64,000 bases of DNA from Terebella lapidaria (taxonomy: Eukaryota; Annelida; Polychaeta; Terebellida; Terebellidae): the NCBI GenBank assembly GCA_949152475.1, contig OX424566.1, positions 31,286,423 through 31,350,422 of the forward strand, written 5' to 3'. The translations under genes and the position numbers were made by a program. The notes below the pieces were generated by a model. It was not told where the DNA came from, did not search any database, and was given only the letters and a program-made list of their open reading frames with translations. Of the stretch, positions 2,139-40,469 are shown in pieces (the first letter of the stretch is position 1; each line of letters opens with the position of its first letter).

Positions 2139-9778
<7,640 letters not shown>

Positions 9779-9786
<8 letters not shown>

Positions 9787-15734: not shown

Positions 15735-18700
15735 CTAGACACGTCTCTGGGACAGCTTCAGAGCCTGAAATAGCAAAACAAGGTTATAGTCTGAAAATAA
15801 ATTTTAATTTAGAGACTGATCGATCGAGAAAAATACTATGTTCTAAAGAATCAACTTATTTTTAAAATATGTGTCAGTGCATATCAATGTGGGAAGTTCT
15901 GTCAAATACCTTACATGCCGAAACTCAACAAAAATACCCAAAATATATTAATTTGGAAACCTAGAAATTGAACTGCTCTCTAGCCGCAAGTCAGAATACA
16001 CAAATCACCACTGACCTTGGATATATCGACTCCGGTCATGCCCTCGACGACTGAGGGCAGTTTCTGCATGACCTCTAAAACCTCGCCGGTCATCTTGGAG
16101 GCTCCCACGTCGCCCTGACCGCTCGATACCATCGTGATCTTCTTGGCCTGAGAGAGCGGAGCAGCTACCTCTGCTGCCACCTGGTGGACATCATGGGTAC
16201 CAAGGTAAACGAATAAAAAGGCTGCTCAGAATCTATTGAGACAATTTTTTCCCCATTTTGAAGTCAGATTATTGTACTGCTCGCCAAACGACCACACAAT
16301 GTGAATTTGTGTCCAAAATGCTTATTCCAGAATAGAATATGCTGAGTAAAATGGATGAGCGCCAGGATGTTCACTCACCCCCCCAATTTATGCACTAAAC
16401 AGCACATGACTAAGGACTATCAACTTTAAATTCACATTGTTTGGTTCTAGCTTTTCACGCCCTCCAATTACTCTTGAGTAGAATAGAAAATCATCCCCGT
16501 ACCTTAGGCAACATCTCAAGAACCATGTCGATCATGGCAGCGTCCTGGTAGTCCTTCCAAGCGTCCGCTTTCTTCGCCATCTGCTCGGCTTCAGCCCTAG
16601 CCTTGGCCTCTACCGCGAACGCCTCGGCCTCGCCCTTCATCTGTCAGTGGGGCGCAGAGGGTTAAAGTTAGAGAGGTCACATGGGAAAGGGTTAAAGTTA
16701 ATTTGCATCGCTTGAGTTATGCATTTCACTGCTAATAATTTTGGGATATGTTTCATGAATGTTGAGAGATTGTTAACAAGTTCAGAAGAATTGCAATCTA
16801 CTCATAATTGATATTACATGTACATATAGAAAGTATGCATGCATCTAGGTTAGTTCTGTCCAAGTCTCAGAAATTTCAAAGTCATATTCATGTCACTTCA
16901 AGCATAATGCAGATGATCATATTTAATGCATCATAAACAATAGTCTAAATAATTACCAGCCAGTTATATTTAAGTAATCATATATCACATATATTTAAGT
17001 AATCACAACTTACAAAGTAGGAATACAAATATACAGAAGATTGCTAATAATTATATCATTGACTGCCAAGCTTGAATCAGTAGGATACTTGTGTATATGT
17101 CAAATTAAATTTGGCTTTAATTGCTAAAATTGAGAATAATGTCAAGATTTTGACACAGATCTTCTGTACATTGGAATTTGAACAAGAACCTTTCAGAAAA
17201 ACAATTTTGCTTGGCTGGTGTTTCCATGGTTACCTGAATGGCCTGTGCGGAAGCCTCTGCTTCCAGAACTATGCGATTTCTGAAAGCACAGCGAGCACCC
17301 AAGAGTAAACAAAACATACCTACAGTACACAAACACTGTTCCCCAGCACCACATGTCATATCACATTCATACACTACAAGGGTAATGGGAAGCATAACAA
17401 TTGTTCCTGATCACAAGAGCTAATGGATTTGTTCAGAGTTGAATCTCTGCCATTGCCACCACAATTGATGTCGCAATGAATCAGGATTCTGTGCCAGACA
17501 AATCCACAGCTCATTTGTAATTGGGAACTAAAGCAAAGCAAGACTTAGACAAAACATGCACAGAGCTCAGCAATCAGCATCCACTGGAAAGTAATACTAC
17601 AAGTGTATTATATAGCTAGAACAGACAAGGACTATTTCCATGCCAATTTATTGAGACTCAAACCATGCACAATATTTCTTTCAACACATATCCGTATAGC
17701 CCAGTACCATTACCAAAATGAAACAAAGACACCAAACTAGAAAAGGAATGTGCTATATTATTAGGGTTGTAGTATCGCATGGGTATCCAGGTCACATGAC
17801 TAGTCACATGATTACCCTGATGGCTTCAGCTTCGGCCTCAGCTTCCATGACTATCTTGTTCCTGGAACGCAAAAATATTTCATGTATCAAAGCAAGCCAT
17901 TTACAATCACATAACCCATATCATCTAAACTGCATTCTTTTCTGAAATGAAATCTGCAGCAAATGTATCAAAATTCATACCTTAAACATTCTTGAGCAAG
18001 TTGTTATGCATTTATACAATAAATACACAATATTCCTGAATCAAAGGATATACAATATTCATGAATAATTTATATCCTTTGAAATACAATTCACTTATTT
18101 ATTGCATCTTCCCATTTCACTTTCTTGCTTTCTCAGTCCAAGCTATAAATAACAATGTGCAACCCAACATATTCTCCATCACATCTTCAAGTACGAGTAC
18201 GTACTTGTTGGCCTCGGCGAGTTTTTCCATGCGGTACTTCTCAGCCTCTGCGGGTTTTTTGATGATGGCCTCGAGTTCTCGCTCGCGCCGGACGATCTCC
18301 TGCTCCTGGACCTGGATCTGCTGTGACCTCTCCACGACCTTGATCTGAATGTTCTCTTCCTGGATCCGCTGCTTGGCCTTGGCCGCCTGGATAATTTTAT
18401 CATGTCAGAAATACATGAAACAGTCTCATGTTATGTATTTTGGAGATGTTTTTATCTTTTTGTGACATTTCATGAAATCCAATATAGTTCATATTTTTTT
18501 ACCTAAATGTACTAAAATGGGATATCCAATTATCGTTAGATATCTTTCATATGATTAGGTTTTAATCAGCAGACATCCAGGATAAAATTTCACAACAGTG
18601 TCACTATTCCTTTCACTATAAGTTTCACATTTTTTCTTTAAAAACCCTAGTGTTGATTTTCAGGCCATTGCAAGCAAACCTTTTCTGATTTGATGCACAT

Positions 18701-21700
18701 GCACGAACAGCATCACTTCATTCACATACCTGCAACTCATAGGCCAGCTCTGACTGGGCTTTTGCCGTGAACACTTCTCTGTCGTAGACTGCTTTCTTCA
18801 GTTCAAAGTCTCGCAGGGCCTTGGCAATGTCCACGTCGTTAGCAAACTTGGCCTCCAGCCTCTGCTCCTCCGCTATAGCTTCCTACAGCCAACAAAGCTT
18901 TCAGTTGTTTACACTAGCGACAGAAAGATCATGTGTTCGAGACACAGTCCTACATCAGGATCAGTTTATGTCTGGCTGTGCAAAAGGCACGCAATTTGGT
19001 CAATCACCACAACATCTATATATGCCTGTTGAATTCCCCTATGCAAAACCACTTAAATACATTCACTAGGAAACAAAATAAATCCAACAGCTAAAGATCA
19101 TGGTTGCTATCTAAGACAAACTGAGTTATAGACACACCTTCTGGCCGGCATCACGCCTTGCCTCGGCCTCGCCCATCCTTGCATCTCGCTTTACCTGTGA
19201 TGTTCTTTTCATACCCAGGGCCTTCAGGTAACCCTGTCATAAATACAGCAGAGGTGGTATTGTACCATAAGTATGAATCATGAATGAATGTCTGAAGTCA
19301 TAACGGCACTCAAACAATGAAACAAGTGTAGTCACTATGTAAATACTTCACATTGTACAATATAAACACCAGCTTTGTGTTCAGTGATAGAAAATGTTTT
19401 GCCACAGTTCGCCGAACGTTGCCACATGGTTGCCATGATAGACCAATAGAAAACCCTACTTCCGTCCTGTGGCGCTACGAAACGAGTGACTGAACGCAAG
19501 GCTGGATTGTCACCATTCAAATTGTCACTAATGTTGGCCAGATTTAGGTATTATTTAATGGAAAAGCTTTGACTTTACCTCGTCGTCTCGGATGTCCTTA
19601 ATGGTGTAGCTGACAACCGTGATGCCCATGTGCACGAGGTCGGACGAAGCGACCTCGAAGACAGCCGTCGCAAACTTCTTACGATCCTGATAGAGCTCCT
19701 AGAGACAACGTGACAAGGAAAAGAGCATGTGTATGTATTAACATAGATGACTAAAATGCTTGACCTTGTCTTACGTGTGTGCTGAATAAGGACATTTCAA
19801 AAACCTTATCAGACATGAAACACGTCAACTTAGATCTACTCCTGTCAGAAACTATTTTTGCAGGCTTATATTTTTCTTTGTTTGGTCTACCACATTATTT
19901 TTTTTTGCACATTACCTCAATGGTTATCTGCTCCAAAATCAGATGAAACATGGTTTTCAAACATGATTTTCCATTTACTTATTTATCTATTTACTTTTTG
20001 GGGCACAGTACCTCGACAGTCATATTGCCCATGATGGCGCGTTGATGTCCTTCAAGAGTCTCCTGAGCCACTCGTTTGATATCATTTTCAGACTTGCCGA
20101 GGAACTGCTCACATGCCGCGTCCAGCATCTCCTCATTCTGAGCCTGGAACTTCACCTGTACGGGGGAGAAACAGCTCGTTCTTGAGAAGCTTTGCAATTG
20201 AACAGGTGTTTGAGTTGCATGACTCCATGTAACAATACCGAGCCATGAAAACTTTATACGTTCATAAATATGGATACAAATTCACAATGGATACAAATTA
20301 TCATGGAAATGTAATAATTTATGAATCAGGAAGACAGCAACATGTGCATTGATTCGCATCAATGATACTTTACATACATGTTGGAAATTTAGAATTGATT
20401 TAGTTTCACATTTGAGCACTGCCATTCCCTTAGATAACAACCCATACCTGTGCAATGCCGGTTACAGTAATGGGCACACCATGTTTCGAGTACACATGCT
20501 CACTTCGTATTGGCAGCGTCATTGTATTCAGAGGAAGCCTGCAACGAGGAATCTTTAATGTACATCAAATTCGCATAATTACTACTCCGATCACAAAGTC
20601 AATAATCCTTTCTTAATTGTATCCTTTTTTTACCGAGATAACAAGTATTACTAGTATCAATCTAATATTAATTTACCGCATTATTCTAATTTAAGGATGA
20701 ATTTGTCCAGCTATGTTACATTTTGACCAACTTGGCATGATGCACAAAAAAAATTATATGCATATTACTGAATAATAATATACTAATATTAATATATTTC
20801 TTTTCTTTTAATCCAATGTATTCCACTATCACTCGAACTAAGTTGGGAATCTACAAAAATTGAATTCTACTACCGGTATATCTATGATATTTAATGTACA
20901 AATTATACAGTACATTAACGCTGATTCGATGAAATTTGGCTAAAACAAATTTTAATATCACCCCAATTGATGTGGATAGTATCCAACAAAAATTACAATT
21001 GCGATGATGATTCAACGTGCATTGTACCGCCATAAATACACATACCAGAATGACACTCAAGTTAATCCCAACGTATACCGGGTGTGCATGTATACATATA
21101 TATAGCAGGAACAAGCTACAATTTACAAGCCACAGAGATACAAAGCTACCCATTATCCTATATAGCATGGACAAAACTTAATATTATTTAACTTTGACAG
21201 TTAAGTGAGAATCGAAGCAGAAGGACAAGCAACATAGTTGTCAAGGTTACATGTAGACATATATAGTGACATATATACATAGAAAATGCTGCATGTATCC
21301 AGATGTATATATTTAATATTGGTTGACAACATGTTCTACCTTTGTTCTGATGTTGTTGTGCGTTTTGTATCATACTAACACAATATTCATACTTTCAGGA
21401 TAAGAAGCTTCAAACTTTAAATTTGATTCACAATTATTACAGAACTTTTCTGCATAGTGTCAAAAACAAAGACATTAATGTTATCTGGTTATATCATTTA
21501 CCAAGGTTACATGTTATTGAATCTGTTTTAGACTAGAAAGTTGTTTATGATAATTAAACATGTACCAGAAAAACCCTGGTTAAATTTTCATTTTTCAACA
21601 GATAGCCAATTAGCCATGCAATATTTATTTACACTACAGTTTGTAATCAAGTTCTTGTTATAACTTATTACACAGTGCTAAGAAAAAAAGTTTCAATATC

Positions 21701-24380
21701 TAGTGAATACAAACTCACATGACAAGGCACTTAAATTTAGGTGCAATGAAAACAAAAACACTATTATCATGAATATCAAAACTAAACACAAGGAATCATA
21801 TATATCACGATACATCATGATATTACTAGTCAGTGAGATGATTGTGAAATTTGTGAAGTTTAGTTTGAAAACAACCGATGCAAGGTGATAAAATGCATTA
21901 TGGATAAATATAATCACTAATATATATTGATATATCAATATATTTTTTTGGGGAAAATTTTCCATATATAAGATCAAAAACAAACATTTATCTAGATTTG
22001 ACAAGCTGAATGATATCATACCTCTGAGTTTGTTGACCACAGCAACAGACCCAGATCACTCCACCAACTATCTTATAAGGTTTACCGTTGGGGTTTCCCC
22101 AACCTGTGGAAAAACCAATATCTCACTTAACTTTTCATACATGATTACATATACCAATAACCTCCTCGGAGTGGGATCGCTGGCTAATGTTCTGTGCCCA
22201 ACAGTCACTGTCTGTGGTAATATTCCAGCACCATGCTTGTTTTGGAAAAGCAATGAAGATTTGAACAAACCAGAAGACAATGCCAAAATGTTCATTCAAT
22301 CAGCTGATGAAGAATTCATGGCACCAAAACTTTCTCCTGTGCAGTTCAGCATGTTCAGCCAGCACATATATACAGCAATCACTGGATGTCACAAGTGCAA
22401 TTTACAAATGCTGGTACTAGTAAAGGGCGTATAGCCATGATGCAAATCATCCAATGTATGAAGAATCTGGTTCTGAGTATGCAGAAAAAAATTGATTAAA
22501 AAGGAAAAAAATGGTGATTACCAACAAATCAAGTGCCGTGTTTTTGATTTTCACAAACTTGCACACACAAAATTCATACACGTGTACACTGGAAACTACG
22601 CTCTGCTTGTTCATTATTAATTATTAAATTTGTTATTGCACTATCTCTTCCTATTCCATTACCACTATCGACATTAGGACCAGTGAGAAGGATTACAGTA
22701 GGGGAGTCAGTGAACTCAATGCTACTGCTTTGTCAGAATGCATGCAAATATTTTAATAAAAGCGAACAAAAAAGATATATTTACACCTTGAGAAAATGTT
22801 ACCCAAGAATTTTTTGAGAACTGCCTAGTCTGCTTTCATTTACATATGTATATTATCCAAATAAGTAATTTTTTTCAGCATGTCACTGACAAAAACACTA
22901 AAGATGATTAAGTATCATTTCTTGGTTCTTTTTATTTCGATATTCCTTCAAAACTTATACCTTCCACCACAAAAAAAACTGCACTAAACAACATCATTTG
23001 TATGTACATAAATATTGTAAAGAAAAAAAAGCATGCACAAATCTTGGATAACATACGCCACATATTTACAACACCAAGTCTGGTCCAAATGTGTGATCTG
23101 GATATTGGGAATGTAGTGACCAGCCACCAGGTGTCAGTACTGTACCTCTGTATACGTTGACAACACATCCAGACCCAAACTCTTCCTCCCGCAACCTTGA
23201 AAGGCTCCGACTCGCAGCATCCTAGCAACCCCCATTGGAATTAAACACCAAAAGTGGCCAATGGGTGAAAATAATTTGAAAGGAGAGAAAAAGATCAATA
23301 TAATTAATTAATAGCCATTTGTTCCATCATTTATGTTGTGACATTGATCATGTTGATGGTGATAGCTTGCATTGAAAATATATTGAACATACCACATTTC
23401 ATTTCATTCAAATAGAGTTTGACCACAGTGGGTTAAGATAAAATGATTAGTAGGGCAATTTATTTCGGAATATGGTGGGAATTTTCTAATACATTATCAT
23501 GATTTAGCAATGCTGCATCATGGAAAACAAAAAGGGGCCCACTTCTCATGATTTATTCTAAAAAGGACAGCTATTCCAGAGTCCCTTACATGCAATACCC
23601 GGTTACCCGGTACATGTAATATACGTTTGTATCGTCCAAAATTCTGTTGCAGCTACAGCTTGCATTAGTAGGCCCAATTGCAAGTTGCGAATTGCGTCAA
23701 CATTGCAAATTACTTGTTCTTAATTGTACAGCGAAATCAGGGGTGACTTGTTAGTTTTGTTGGTAATTTCAGTTCCACTTGTCTCCGATAGGGCCAGACT
23801 TGTATAGACTGTATAGCATACGTTCCTGGTCAATCCAATCTTCATAAGACATTTGCATAGGGGCCCAGGGTCTACATAAAGGCACACCAAAGTGCATACT
23901 GTATCTATATGAGCCATCCGTCCTAAATTCGCCGCATTCCCAAATTCACCAACGTGGATTTCAGGCCTTGTAATGTAAATAAAACTAACAAATTCGATCG
24001 TCAATCGAGACTCTGATATTCAATCTTTGTTCCAGAAATTTATTTGACACAAAACGAGCTTCTAAGTTCTGACTCTATTCTACATGTAAGTTTAAACCCT
24101 GATTTTGTGCGAATAGACCATCGCAAGACACTTGGGATGGGTTAGCCCTGAATACAAGGCACAATGATCGGTCACCCCCAGCCTGAGCGACGCTGATCGT
24201 TGTGCCTTGTATTCAGGGCTAGGGATGGGTGGGTGTTTCCATTCATAGTACGTGATCCTGAATACCGACCAAACAAAATATACAAGAGATCTGAACATGC
24301 CAAACGTATCGCATACCTGATTTTACAAGCACTTCATTCGGCCCTCCGGTAACAAATCCACAGTCACAGCAATTCCCCAT
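15735..24380 (-). CDS. FLOT1: Flotillin-1 (SPFH/PHB-domain membrane scaffold)
   Basis: Exons in transcript order: 24380-24317, 23221-23146 (2a) or 22103-22022 (2b), 20538-20448, 20155-20012, 19698-19579, 19233-19138, 18882-18730, 18386-18205, 17861-17816 (9a) or 17279-17234 (9b), 16640-16503, 16180-16016, 15764-15735. All junctions are GT-AG and phase-consistent; the product is 434 aa with 2a or 436 aa with 2b (human FLOT1 is 427). The SPFH domain covers roughly residues 8-190 and contains [18 protein letters not shown] and [11 protein letters not shown]. The flotillin coiled coil with EA repeats follows (~190-370; [17 protein letters not shown]), then [15 protein letters not shown]. Flotillins oligomerise on the cytosolic face of plasma and endosomal membranes and organise microdomains, endocytosis and signalling. 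Sequence motifs fit FLOT1 rather than FLOT2, yet the N-terminus begins MGNCCDC, a FLOT2-like acylation signal. Two exon positions are duplicated (separate entries). Confidence 0.97.
16016..16180 (-). CDS. FLOT1: FLOT1 exon 11
   Basis: This 55-codon exon encodes residues 371-425, containing [15 protein letters not shown] and [13 protein letters not shown], the diagnostic flotillin-1 C-terminal motif. It splices in phase 0 to the last exon (15764-15735), which encodes ALKLSQRRV and the TAG stop at 15737-15735. Confidence 0.95.
17234..17279 (-). CDS. FLOT1: FLOT1 alternative exon 9b
   Basis: A 46-nt exon between TTTCAG and GTAACC. With the two bases carried from exon 8 it encodes [16 protein letters not shown] and ends in phase 0, exactly like exon 9a. 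It has the same length, the same phases, and 11 of 16 residues identical to 9a. It lies 536 nt downstream of 9a in the transcript. Including both would shift the frame, so mutually exclusive use is predicted. The residues lie in the EA-repeat coiled coil used for oligomerisation. Confidence 0.85.
17816..17861 (-). CDS. FLOT1: FLOT1 alternative exon 9a
   Basis: A 46-nt exon between TTCCAG and GTAATC, encoding [16 protein letters not shown] (residues 309-324). This version has the full AEAEAEA run seen in typical flotillins, so it is probably the canonical form. Compared with 9b it has two more glutamates and an arginine in place of the last glutamine. Confidence 0.92.
22022..22103 (-). CDS. 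FLOT1: FLOT1 alternative exon 2b
   Basis: An 82-nt exon preceded by a good polypyrimidine acceptor (TTGGTTTTTCCACAG) and followed by GTATGA. With the G from exon 1 it reads [15 protein letters not shown], then [12 protein letters not shown], and leaves AG for exon 3, the same entry and exit phases as exon 2a. It has no stop codon. It aligns with 2a over K-V-GG, W-V, CC and Q. It carries three consecutive cysteines where 2a has two, in the segment aligned with human FLOT1 Cys34. The protein would be two residues longer. Confidence 0.82.
23146..23221 (-). CDS. FLOT1: FLOT1 alternative exon 2a
   Basis: A 76-nt exon between TTGCTAG and GTACAG. It encodes residues 22-46: [17 protein letters not shown] then WMCCQRIQ. 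The match to human FLOT1 (VAGGRVFV...IQQIQR) is closer than for 2b, so this is probably the canonical exon. It contributes two cysteine pairs (23/24 and 41/42) on the membrane-facing hairpin. Confidence 0.92.
24144..24220. repeat. 26-bp-arm hairpin in FLOT1 intron 1
   Basis: The arm 24144-24169 (AGCCCTGAATACAAGGCACA...) is the inverted complement of 24195-24220 with one mismatch, separated by a 25-nt loop. It lies about 97 nt downstream of the FLOT1 exon 1 donor and would be transcribed in the FLOT1 pre-mRNA. Confidence 0.9.
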
Positions 24381-24542
24381 GTTCTATGAATATCAATGAT
24401 GCAAATCACTAATATCTTAGGGCTTGTTTGACTGCAAATCTGGGCGAAAATGGGGAAACGCTAAGAATAATTTACGGAGATATGGCCGAAAGTTGAGTTT
24501 TCCAGGCGCAAGTGCAGAGGTGTGCATTTGGGTCAGGTCAAG

Positions 24543-25854: not shown

Positions 25855-28745
25855 ATGTCTACCATAGATGATGTAAGTTGGACACAAACTAAATCTAGAT
25901 CTAGATAGGCCCTAGATCTAGTTGCCAGGATGGCTCTGAGTCTAGAGCCATTCCTGGCAATAGATCTAGTCATCGACTGTAGATAACTAGATAACACACT
26001 ATAGATCTAGATAACACACTATTACACAGTCACAAGTGCTGCAGCTGGTGCTGTCAGTGGTGAGTGGGGTACACGACCAGGCCGTCCTTTACGGTCACCA
26101 CACCAGTTTCTCTCATAGATGTTGCTCTATATATCATAGTTCAAGTAGCTTGACAACACCTTTCTGAAATATTGGGTCCACATGGTCATACAATACACCA
26201 AAAGAAAGCTTGAAGCTTCAGGAAAACAAATATGTAACAAAATTGACTGTAGGTAATGATGCAGAGGTGCTGGAGCCTTTCAAAGAGGAGTACCGTCAGG
26301 TCCTTCTGAAGACAAAAATTAGTGAAAAGTCCAAAAAAGTGAAGCTCGCTGTTTACTCGCAAACAAAACGTGATAATACATATTTCAGGGCTTGAAAATA
26401 TTCAATATTAATAACTTTACACATCGCAACATCATACACACTACAAATTTATGACGTTAGTGATATCACTGTGCCCAAAGTTGTCAAATTTGCCCTCATC
26501 AGGCCAGTAGAAGTAGAACAAATGATCACTGAAGCCATTTCTGACAAAATTCTAGTCACAAATAATCGTTTAATTTGTAGCACAATGCCTAAGGTACTCC
26601 TTTACTGCAATGTTATCAAAGTTCAATAAAAAAAATCTTATGAGATATGCCCAAAATAGGAATTTTATCTGATGTCTCCAAAAAACGATAGTCAAGCTAG
26701 TTTACATGGACGATGTAAACGATGTAAACAAGTGCCAACCAATACTAAACAGATGGCGGAAGTGCAGATGAAACACGACAGGCCCCTCATTTCGAATCAA
26801 TTTCCCAAGCAGTACGGGGGTTTATGATTGAAATATTGTTATATTATGAAAGGAAAAACATTCATTCACAAATTAAACCATGTCTAATCGGCGACAAGAA
26901 GTTTAAACTTAATTTTTGGAGTGAAAAAAACCTTTGAGCTGAACTTTCACCTCCGAAATTGGGTCAGATCTCAAAACGAGGGTTCTTGTCATCTAGGCCG
27001 ATGTCTAACCTTCCCATACATACCAAATATGCTATGTAAAAGACTTTCTAATTGGTCGAAAATGACCGTAACATGACCCCACCCAAATCTGGTTCAACAA
27101 GCTTCACTTTTTTCGCTCCCGCGAAAAACTGCTTGCGCGCGCCGCCTAGCGGAGTGTTGTCATGCTAGTTCAAGGTTCTGGGATGTATTATATAGACTCA
27201 TTATATAGACTCACGTGAGATGTTTGGCAAATCATACTTAATGTTGTTTACACTAATGGTTTTTTCATTTTACCTGGTGCCAGGTGGCATCCGTAATCTG
27301 CTTCCAACTTCTAAAAGATTCTTCACGGCTTTTGTAGATGTCAGCTGTCCGTCTTCATACTTTTAAAACCATTTCTTGACAACCAAAAGCAGAGAGATAC
27401 ATGTACTGTAGGTCCTAACTCGTCCGATGACGATAGTTCATTCATGTATTAAGAGTCGTGCTTCGAGCACGCTATTCCCTATCCTGACAATCAGCACCTG
27501 TCAATCAGCAAATTATATAACATGTTCAATTATAAATCTTCAAAAGTTCAATGCTACGATGAAATCACATAAACCACATTTAAGACCCCAAGCGGAAGGT
27601 ACAATATACAATATCATATGACCACATCGCGCAGAGCAGCAGTGTGACAGCCGAATATATGAGAGGTAATGGGCGGCCGGTTCGTGTCAGTGGCCGGGTT
27701 GGGTGTAGACCGTCACAGTGAGTCCAGTGACGTTGTGCAGCTGGTCAGCTGGACCGTGAAATTAAAACGCTGCAAAATCATCTGGACATAAAAACCACAA
27801 AATTTTCGAGCTGCGAATATATCCTGTTTTACAGTATTTAGTCTTATATGATTCAAGGGCTTTTAGAAACAGTAACCCATGGATGATACTGGCATGCCAA
27901 TCCGATGGCTTGAATGGAACAATACCAATTTCATTTCTGTCAAGATTTTGAAAGGCGCACAACTCCTCGTTATTGGATAGGTTAAGAGTTATTACCATGT
28001 AATGCGAAGTTATAAGCAATTCTCACACACCTATTCTGTCCGCTTTAAAACCGTTACGACAGGTAATGGAGTGCATTGTTAATTTTGGTTGAGCAAATTA
28101 CTAAATTTTCGGATAAATCATTCTATATTGTCCCATGTCACTGATGTCACTAATATCAGAATAATATGTTCGCCTATATACTCTCATGTTTCATGCTCGT
28201 ATGATGTAAAAATGTTTGATCTTCCAGCTCAGAAATGATCTTGCTGAATTGGAGAAATTTCTGGCAGAGGCTGCAAGACAGAAAGTGAAGTCAATTTTAA
28301 CTGTGGAAGCTCACAAGCTTCGAACAGAAATAACACATCGTCTAGAGCAAGAAAAGTCCAATGGAATTGCTAGCAAAGACACTGCAGAGGGGAAAGTCAC
28401 AACCGCTCCCGCAAAATCCACGAAATATGCAACAAATATCACATCATATGGTATGTCCTTTAATCATAAATTGTCTTTCACCAGTTTAATGTATTTGTTT
28501 CAGTAATGAATCTATGTAGAAATTCCCCCTTCCGGTGTACCTTGTGTGAATTGTTCTATTTTTCTCCAGCTTGGGATCAGTCCGACAAGTTTTTCAAGGT
28601 CTACGTCACTTTGAAAGATGTCCAGAAATCGTCTGAAGGAAGTGTCACCTCTGAGTTCTCTGATAGGTAACTTGTGATCTTCGATTAATAAACATCGTGC
28701 CATCATTAAGGCATTTCGGCAGAAATGCCTTTATGGTTTTAGCAG

Positions 28746-38530: not shown

Positions 38531-38663
38531 ATCTCGTCCTACAACTTCAGACCACCCTAGACGCACAGCCTGGAAACCCAATTACTGAACTAGAAGTCGA
38601 TAAGTTATCAAGCCACTGAACTCTGGAAAAGCTGCAGATATCCATGGACTGCAAGCAGAACAC

Positions 38664-40469
38664 GTGAAAAAAGCACTGCCAGCCATCTCAACAGCTCTGA
38701 CTCGACTGCTTTCATTCTTAATAGAAAATACCCTACTACCAGTCCACAAGAAAGGCAAGGACCGCTTGCTACCAGACAATTATAGAGGCATAACTATAAC
38801 ACCAATCCGTGCAAAAACCCTCGAACACATCGTCCCACAGAGAATTGAGAGCAAGTTTGTCCAGGCAAACCTTCAGTACAGCTTTATCACGGGACTAGCA
38901 CCCACCATGGCAGTACTGGCTGTCACGGAAGTCATCTTTGATGCTATGGACAACAAACAGCCGCTCTACCTTCTCACCCTATATGTCAGGAAGGCCATTG
39001 ATGTCGTTGACCATGCCTGTCTTCTCAGGAAGCTCCATGATCAGGTCGATGCTACAACCTGGTGTTTTCTTGAGGAAAATCTGAAGATGACAACTGCGGT
39101 CAAAGCGTGTGGTGAACCGGGGTCACCCTTTGCTGTCGAACAAGGCATAATATGTCAGGGAAAGATCTTGTCTACATACTGCTCTAAGACCTATGTCAAC
39201 AACCTGCTTACCCAATTGAAGAACACTGGAACAGGCTCCTGGATTGGACCATCTTTTCTAGGTTCTCCCACCTGCGCAGATGACGTTATCCTGCTAGCCA
39301 CAAACTACACCGACCTGCATACCATGATTGACATCATCGCTGACTATGCCAGCCGTGAGCGATACCAGATCCATCCGGATAAATCACAGTGTGTCACTTT
39401 CAACATCAGCCACCCAACCTACCCAGTAATACGCGACAAGACTATTCCCACAGTCAACGAAGCGACGCATCTAGGCATTGATAGGTACTCAGACCTCCTG
39501 TCTCCTGACCAACTAATCGAAAGCCACCTGTCTCTAGCCAGAAAAACAGCATACTCCCTGATGGGAGCTAGATTCCACGGAACAAATGAGATATTACCAT
39601 CTTACTCGATACCCATCTATACCAGACATACGTGCTGCCCCGTCTAATCCACGGATTGGAAGCCACCATCCTCAAGGACAAGCACTTTGCATTCCTAGAT
39701 GACTTTCACAGGATTACCCTAAGAAACCTCCAATCACTACCCGTACGAACTGCCCAATGCTCGATCTATGTTTTAGGTGGCATGACTCCCTTTGACGGTA
39801 TCCTGGATACTCAGATCTGCTCTTTACTACATTGACTTAGCAAGCACCCAAGTAGACTACCAACTCGCCATCAAGAAAAGCAAATCTAAATCCTGGTTTG
39901 TCTACGCAGGAAGGAGACTGTCTCGCTACAGAATCAACCCACTTGATATTATCACCAGCCATGGCCTCGGTCTCAATACACTGAAAAAGACTATCCAATC
40001 CTACTGGACTAAAAGACTTACAGAAGAAGTAGCACTTAAGAATTCCCTCCGATACCTGGACGTTGACGACTGTTCCTTGAGCAAGATCCACCGCAACAGG
40101 ACAGCAACAGGACCAAAGCTTCTGGAGACCCGCAAAGCCATACTGAAGGCTAGACGGGTAACCGGTATGTACACCCTGCAATCTAACAAGGCAGCTTTCA
40201 ATCACTACAAAGTTGATCCCACATGCCCCTTGTGTGAAGAGGAACCAGAGGACCGAGCCCTGATCCCCCGATGCACGGATCTGCGGATCCCAAGAGACAA
40301 GCACATGGTGAAAGTAACAGACCTCATTCCAAATTTCAAGAACCTAACTGAACATTGTGAACTTTCCGTCATCCTCAACTCTGTTTATCCTGACATGAAG
40401 AGTTCACACGGGCTGATCTGGAGGCAGCTACCAGATCTCTGTTATTCAGCATCACCTGCAAGAGGATAA
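38664..40469 (+). pseudogene. Reverse transcriptase remnant of a LINE (broken)
   Basis: The reading frame runs 38664-39647, shifts by one base near 39605-39632 (continuing as YVLPRLIHGLEATIL), and returns to the first frame near 39792-39835, ending at 40469. Recognisable pieces are the RT entry block (LLPVHKKGKDRLLPDNYRG), the motif A region (RKAIDVVDH), the catalytic-box region CADDVILLA (normally [FY]ADD), and a C-terminal CPLCEEEP zinc-knuckle with a later Cys and His. At least two frameshifts and the changed motifs make it non-functional. It is a LINE without a recognisable 5' ORF; the clade is not assigned. Confidence 0.85.

Follow-up and report, generated by a model that had tools for sequence, protein, structure and literature searches.

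Flotillin genes encode cage-forming membrane proteins, and one of them, in the genome of the annelid Terebella lapidaria, raises the question of whether a single gene can offer two versions of the surface with which its product meets the membrane. The gene (here called gene A) lies on the minus strand of a 64,000-nucleotide stretch of DNA (contig OX424566.1, positions 31,286,423 to 31,350,422; hereafter the window, to which coordinates refer unless another contig is named) and carries two neighbouring candidates for its second coding exon, 2a and 2b. These two exons are probably an old tandem duplicate and a functional mutually exclusive pair that switches the membrane-contact surface of the protein.

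Exon 1 (24317-24380, with the ATG at 24380; 22 amino acids) ends in phase 1 and can be followed by either exon 2a (23146-23221, 76 nt, G plus 25 amino acids) or exon 2b (22022-22103, 82 nt, G plus 27 amino acids). Each takes its G from exon 1 and hands AG to exon 3 (20448-20538), the shared downstream partner. These coordinates and lengths, the GT-AG borders, the entry phase of 1, and the common exit phase are as given in a preliminary description of the stretch, and its statement that inclusion of both exons or of neither breaks the frame also holds: joining 2a to 2b leads to a stop after 53 amino acids, and skipping both leads to a stop after 24. The core peptides are identical at 10 of 21 residues, and their local alignment score of 64 was reached by none of 2,000 shuffles (maximum 47). 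Among stop-free segments of at least 12 amino acids in all six frames of the whole window, the best unrelated segment scored 41 against 2a and 43 against 2b. The 80-nt intron flanks of the two exons, in turn, are no more similar to each other than shuffled sequences are.

A WebScipio-type definition of tandem-duplicated mutually exclusive exons is available (Hatje et al. 2017, PMC5740500), and exons 2a and 2b resemble such exons in their neighbouring internal position, phase, open frame, GT-AG borders, length difference that is a multiple of three, similar peptides, and joint inclusion that breaks the frame. In the same source, 377 clusters (60%) have exons not divisible by three. The difference is that 2a and 2b were assigned here on sequence criteria, not on junction reads. 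On those terms the mutually exclusive architecture that had been proposed is well supported: the exons are homologous and agree in phase, their frame logic and splice sites fit, an old divergence has left the frame intact, and the family contains two more such pairs.

Those two pairs were recovered in a search for sister exons, i.e., open segments bounded by AG and GT, located between neighbouring exons at a distance of at most 3,000 nt, in the same phase, and differing in length by up to 60 nt in steps of three. The search covered 31 exons of three flotillin genes (gene A and its paralogues B and C, the latter two without exon 6 and the final exon) and flagged six exons: 2a/2b, 9a/9b of gene A, and 4a/4b of paralogue C. 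No sister copies were found for the other 25 exons of the three genes, for which the best ratio of score to self-score was 0.02. In 200 dinucleotide shuffles of the introns for each pair, scores reached at most 14 for exon 2 (observed, 42) and at most 6 for exon 9 (observed, 51).

The exon 9 pair is absent from the preliminary description. Exons 9a (17816-17861) and 9b (17234-17279) are candidate alternatives of 46 nt and 16 amino acids each, have the same phases, and are identical at 11 of 16 residues; joined, they give 353 amino acids and then a stop, and without either the product ends after 309. Their upstream 80-nt flanks are similar at about two standard deviations above shuffles, and the downstream flanks are not. 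Exon 9 corresponds to residues 309-324 of the gene A protein, and 9a encodes an EA-repeat helix. In the alignment with human FLOT1, exon 9 falls in the EA-repeat region, which would place it in the wall barrel of the flotillin cage. In the wall barrel of the human cage, subunits are glued together by charged residues (PMC11260169). Relative to 9a, exon 9b has Ser, Gln, and Gln in place of two Glu and one Arg, and could thereby alter the subunit contacts of the cage wall.

In paralogue C, exons 4a and 4b (C13:35707527-35707911, on the contig that also holds the window) are 144 nt each, lie 97 nt apart, and share 34 of 48 amino acids, with a sister score of 172 (self-scores, 241 and 243). Third codon positions differ in 36 of 48 codons, and first and second positions in 22 of 96 (P=2.5e-9); because of this third-position excess, both exons look constrained at the protein level. 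Their AG-free zones (the distance from the acceptor back to the preceding AG) are 95 and 74 nt. In the 97-nt intron, the final AG ahead of the acceptor lies at nucleotide 20 and a pyrimidine-rich stretch begins at about nucleotide 38, so that steric exclusion between 4a and 4b is possible. With its 97-nt intron and 74-nt AG-free zone, exon 4b is comparable to the OGDH 4a/4b system (PMC7969005).

What the exchange of 2a for 2b would change depends on the segment that they encode. In the human cage, SPFH1 domains enter one leaflet via a surface that is rich in Trp and Cys and partly acylated (PMC11260169). Human FLOT1 is palmitoylated on Cys34; FLOT2 carries a myristoyl group on Gly2 and palmitoyl groups on Cys4, Cys19, and Cys20 (PMC7177705). 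Exon 2 spans this membrane-entering SPFH1 region and with it the Cys34 position, which had been assigned to the motifs WMCC in 2a and WVCCC in 2b; the alignment agrees and can be refined, in that Cys34 matches the first Cys of the motif in 2a and the third in 2b. Both exons thus have a Cys at this position, where B and C have Gly. The loops that precede the motifs had been called unrelated and hydrophilic, but the 2a loop is not arbitrary, as its Cys-Cys recurs in B, C, and the FLOT2 gene of this genome. Overall, 2a has four Cys, with one Cys-Cys (after SG) at the FLOT2 Cys19/20 position and another at the Cys34 position, and it has an arginine inside its hydrophobic part and a longest uncharged run of 8 residues. 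The loop of 2b is without Cys-Cys; its three Cys all lie in a CCC that ends at the Cys34 position, it has two extra residues, and its longest uncharged run is 16 residues, compared with 10 and 13 in the paralogues and 11 in human FLOT1. By Kyte-Doolittle, the best 12-residue hydropathy is 2.25 for 2b versus 1.18 for 2a, although the Wimley-White interface scale fails to separate them (-2.95 and -3.20, respectively). Possible acylation would therefore be shifted in 2b from the loop to the hydrophobic hairpin, and it is plausible that the switch changes lipid anchoring; that 2b is buried more deeply in the membrane is a guess.

The rest of gene A is that of a complete flotillin gene, with 12 coding positions and 14 coding exons. 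Exon 3 is followed by exons 4 (20012-20155), 5 (19579-19698), 6 (19138-19233), 7 (18730-18882), and 8 (18205-18386), the exon 9 pair, and exons 10 (16503-16640), 11 (16016-16180), and 12 (15735-15764, including the stop codon), all on the minus strand. The 2a/9a isoform has 434 amino acids and contains both the SPFH/Band_7 domain (PF01145, 73.2 bits; cut-off 23.6) and the flotillin C-terminal domain (PF15975, 34 bits; cut-off 27). Scores against human FLOT1 and FLOT2 are 564 versus 386 bits for this isoform and 540 versus 371 bits for the 2b/9b isoform, by which gene A is of the flotillin-1 type, nearer to FLOT1 than to FLOT2. Its protein aligns with the human flotillins of known structure (PDB 9bq2, 9l3g) over almost the whole length; it differs from them in its FLOT2-like MGNC start, its larger number of cysteines, and the alternative exons 2 and 9. 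The N-terminus reads MGNCCDC and includes Gly2, and a FLOT2-style N-terminal acylation may possibly have been gained by gene A. Asp6, however, departs from the PROSITE motif for N-myristoyltransferase. By eye, the MGNCC start of gene A is FLOT2-like, and B and C begin with the FLOT1-like MFHTCGPNEA. Intron 1 contains a 27-nt inverted repeat (24143-24221; 96% complementary, 25-nt loop) that resembles a hairpin or a miniature inverted-repeat transposable element.

The paralogues indicate which copy of exon 2 is the canonical form. The 761.6-Mb assembly that contains the window was searched, with only the best-scoring candidates considered. At least three flotillin-1-type genes lie on its contig C13, namely A, B (35.729-35.734 Mb), and C (35.704-35.727 Mb), and a FLOT2 gene lies on contig C2; the latter was checked for additional exon copies by exon 2, 4, and 9 queries, exon-by-exon tblastn, and whole-protein searches only. 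B and C each have one 76-nt exon 2 and one 46-nt exon 9, and the exon-2 segment of FLOT2 reads GGCCGAQSKKTIIGNWGWAWCLVTDVQ. Because the single exon 2 of the paralogues shares the length and the Cys-Cys of 2a, 2a is by this comparison the canonical membrane-facing segment, and 2b is the derived alternative. A Lys and a Trp common to 2a and 2b set them apart from B, C, and human FLOT1, and the duplication is thus most simply placed within the gene A lineage, after its split from B and C. One residue points the other way: a Gln present in B, C, and human FLOT1 is retained in 2b and has been lost from 2a. No processed (intronless) flotillin copies, which could have preserved a record of splicing, were found among 30 of the best-scoring matches, the longest of which covers 103 of 434 residues; every match falls within one of the three C13 genes or the C2 gene. 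As a side observation, exons 3, 8, and 10 of B and C are nearly identical (97-98% at the nucleotide level) and exons 2, 4, 9, and 11 are less so, which suggests patchy gene conversion between these two genes.

The splice signals of the pair are unequal. Sites were ranked among all AG (492) and GT (574) dinucleotides of the gene region with a small matrix derived from the plain exons of gene A itself. The strong sites that the preliminary description attributed to both exons are borne out for the 2b acceptor (10/492) and for the donors of 2b (13/574) and 2a (8/574), but the 2a acceptor is ordinary (41/492). The donor of 9a is weak (98/574). At the 2a acceptor, the pyrimidine tract lies far upstream of the AG, and the acceptor AG and its AG-free zone together occupy 23222-23365. 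At 142 nt, this zone is the longest among 32 flotillin acceptors measured and the only gap of that length among 706 AG gaps in a 13-kb region; the zones of 2b (16 nt), 9a (61 nt), and 9b (38 nt) all fall short of 100 nt. Within it, TATTAAT (branch A at -87) and TATTGAT (-74) precede a pyrimidine tract that includes TCTT and TCTCT. In human introns, AG-free zones of at least 100 nt occur at 838 of 67,334 sites and are associated with more alternative splicing (PMC1431707). For 2a, the long zone is suggestive of a distant branch point, a feature associated with alternative exons, and 2a is in this respect similar to alpha-tropomyosin exon 3 and PTB exon 11 (PMC1431707): its AG-free zone is long, its candidate branch points are at -87 and -74, and its pyrimidine tract is distant from the AG. 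More broadly, the six duplicated exons have a median AG-free zone of 67.5 nt versus 26 nt for 26 single exons (one-sided P=0.019, two-sided P=0.038) in a post hoc comparison that covered B and C without exon 6 and the final exon.

None of the familiar routes to exclusivity was found in the 1,042-nt intron that separates 2a from 2b (22104-23145). Steric interference, which has a limit of about 50 nt between donor and branch point, is ruled out because the distances are too large, both for 2a/2b (1,042 nt) and for 9a/9b (536 nt). In contrast to the known exons with distant branch points, the predicted branch point of 2a is in intron 1, away from the competing donor, and therefore could not sterically exclude 2b. 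Incompatibility of U2 and U12 introns was likewise rejected, as the donors of gene A look U2-type by eye when compared with the U12 consensus. Docking/selector base pairing, which the preliminary description had proposed as a check, did not rise above shuffles when 400 nt beside each exon were scanned (27/60 and 40/60 shuffles reached the observed values for exon 2). A looser scan gave -25.9 kcal/mol for exon 2, which 0 of 3 shuffles reached, although three are too few for calibration; in the looser scan of exon 9, none of 25 shuffles did worse than the observed value.

The divergence of 2a and 2b bears on whether both are maintained. They are 63% identical at the nucleotide level (NG86 dN 0.37, dS 1.57), and because of this dS the duplication is, by estimate, old. 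In a simulation of neutral decay, a copy passed if it retained an open frame, the AG and GT, and at least the observed similarity. For exon 2, the numbers passing per 10,000 were 838, 71, 4, and 1 at 0.3, 0.5, 0.7, and 1.0 substitutions per site, respectively, of which 0.5 matches the observed 37% nucleotide difference; for exon 9, they were 132, 4, 0, and 0. Since passing is so rare at the fitting divergence, 2b is unlikely to be a dead copy. In the exon 9 pair, third positions differ in 10 of 16 codons and first and second positions in 8 of 32 (P=0.025), and the third-position excess is also seen when exons 2 and 9 are pooled (P=0.0033).

Several observations nevertheless weigh against a functional exclusive pair. 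The pair is known here from one genome sequence alone, and no 2b-like exon (score of at least 42) was found in B, C, or FLOT2 of this genome. For exon 2 alone, the third-position test is not significant (11/21 versus 12/42 for first and second positions; P=0.096), and at 0.3 substitutions per site as many as 838 of 10,000 neutral copies pass. The 2a acceptor is not exceptionally weak, as three of nine plain acceptors (exons 7, 8, and 10) rank lower, and the AG-free zone of 2b is only 16 nt. In human data, only one-half to one-fifth of long AG-free zones are estimated to mark distant branch points (PMC1431707), and the calibrated scan of this one species gave no excess of docking/selector pairing for exon 2. 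Some of these points would be expected if 2b were a relic, i.e., a decaying or unused duplicate, with 2a alone in use: 2b is present in gene A only, its selection test falls short, it has diverged from the family (8/21 amino acids identical to either paralogue), and it has lost the conserved Cys-Cys. This explanation is nonetheless unlikely, as 2b has an open frame with a good acceptor and donor, retains the GG, the Trp, the cysteine at the Cys34 position, and the QR at its end, would pass jointly under neutrality in only 71 of 10,000 cases at 0.5 substitutions per site, and has in the same gene a second pair with a significant third-position excess.

Two other explanations concede that 2b is spliced but not that it is exclusive of 2a under the same promoter. 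The exons could be alternative without being exclusive, with frequent double inclusion or skipping that shuts the gene off through nonsense-mediated decay. The early stops that follow from both and from neither would fit unproductive splicing as a form of control, but matching phases and family-conserved residues are kept in both exons and would be needless in a poison exon, which makes such a role very unlikely. More remote still is an internal promoter that drives 2b with a first exon of its own. It could find a place in the intron between 2a and 2b, where a 19-nt sequence (22431-22449) repeats directly, with 89% identity, one just before exon 1 (24390-24408). However, the first ATG after the intronic repeat is, by eye, not followed by a phase-1 donor, and the top three matches to exon 1 (scores 40, 34, and 31) all lie outside gene A, although the latter argument is weak, since resemblance to exon 1 is not required of a new first exon.

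Duplicated or mutually exclusive flotillin exons were not found among the papers listed in searches of the open-access literature. In the available text of reports on human FLOT2 and cattle FLOT1, flotillin splicing takes the form of exon skipping or isoform switching, not of duplicated exons, and the stem 'splic' does not appear in the main text of two flotillin reviews. Drosophila Flo-2 is also a flotillin gene with several isoforms; it has eight transcripts, including one (C) with a separate first exon and one (G) with a premature stop, and the available part of the report does not mention a duplicated exon pair (PMC3578937). Similarly, crab flotillin-1 has nine exons, with about 6-9 given for invertebrates, and no duplicated exon is mentioned in the available part of that source (PMC4506021).

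Elsewhere in the window, an RXR-like nuclear receptor gene, identified by eye (approximately 4641-9786, plus strand), adjoins the flotillin gene. Human RXRB and FLOT1 both lie in the major histocompatibility complex region, and the adjacency may be an old linkage. A CacyBP-like exon (28210-28506) and a broken reverse transcriptase of the long interspersed nuclear element type (38604-40469), both on the plus strand, were also noted by eye. The mitochondrial COX1 of the assembly fits, by eye, the invertebrate mitochondrial code and thereby indicates a protostome. Contig C417 (44633-46450) carries another COX1, which is very divergent, has a large insert and an in-frame TGA, and resembles that of ciliate mitochondria; this contig is probably from a cobiont.

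If 2a and 2b do function as a mutually exclusive pair, then either exon 2 would yield a full-length flotillin, with the difference confined to the 26-28 residues that form the inner-leaflet-facing surface of SPFH1. Exclusivity would be enforced at least by the frame, since transcripts with both exons or neither reach an early stop and are presumably decayed. The choice itself may be made at the 3' splice sites, where 2a has an ordinary AG and a predicted distant branch point and 2b has a strong conventional acceptor; the upstream pyrimidine tract of 2a would be open to regulators, which we infer to bind there. Exons 9a and 9b would likewise vary charged residues of the cage wall. Use of both exons, decay of the wrong products, and changed acylation are what we infer from this arrangement. 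A more tentative extension, for which the odds are somewhat below even, is that, in the flotillin genes of this lineage, combinatorial splicing at structural positions (the membrane face by 2a/2b, the cage wall by 9a/9b, and an SPFH segment by 4a/4b in the paralogue) lets cells build compositionally tuned cages that differ in their lipid anchors and in the contacts between subunits. If both versions of exon 2 are expressed, then one gene would produce flotillins that differ only in a membrane-facing patch and its possible acylation sites. This would be a natural matched experiment on the flotillin lipid anchor, with respect to localisation and membrane shape, in a cage of known structure, and 9a/9b would be the equivalent experiment for the contacts of the wall.

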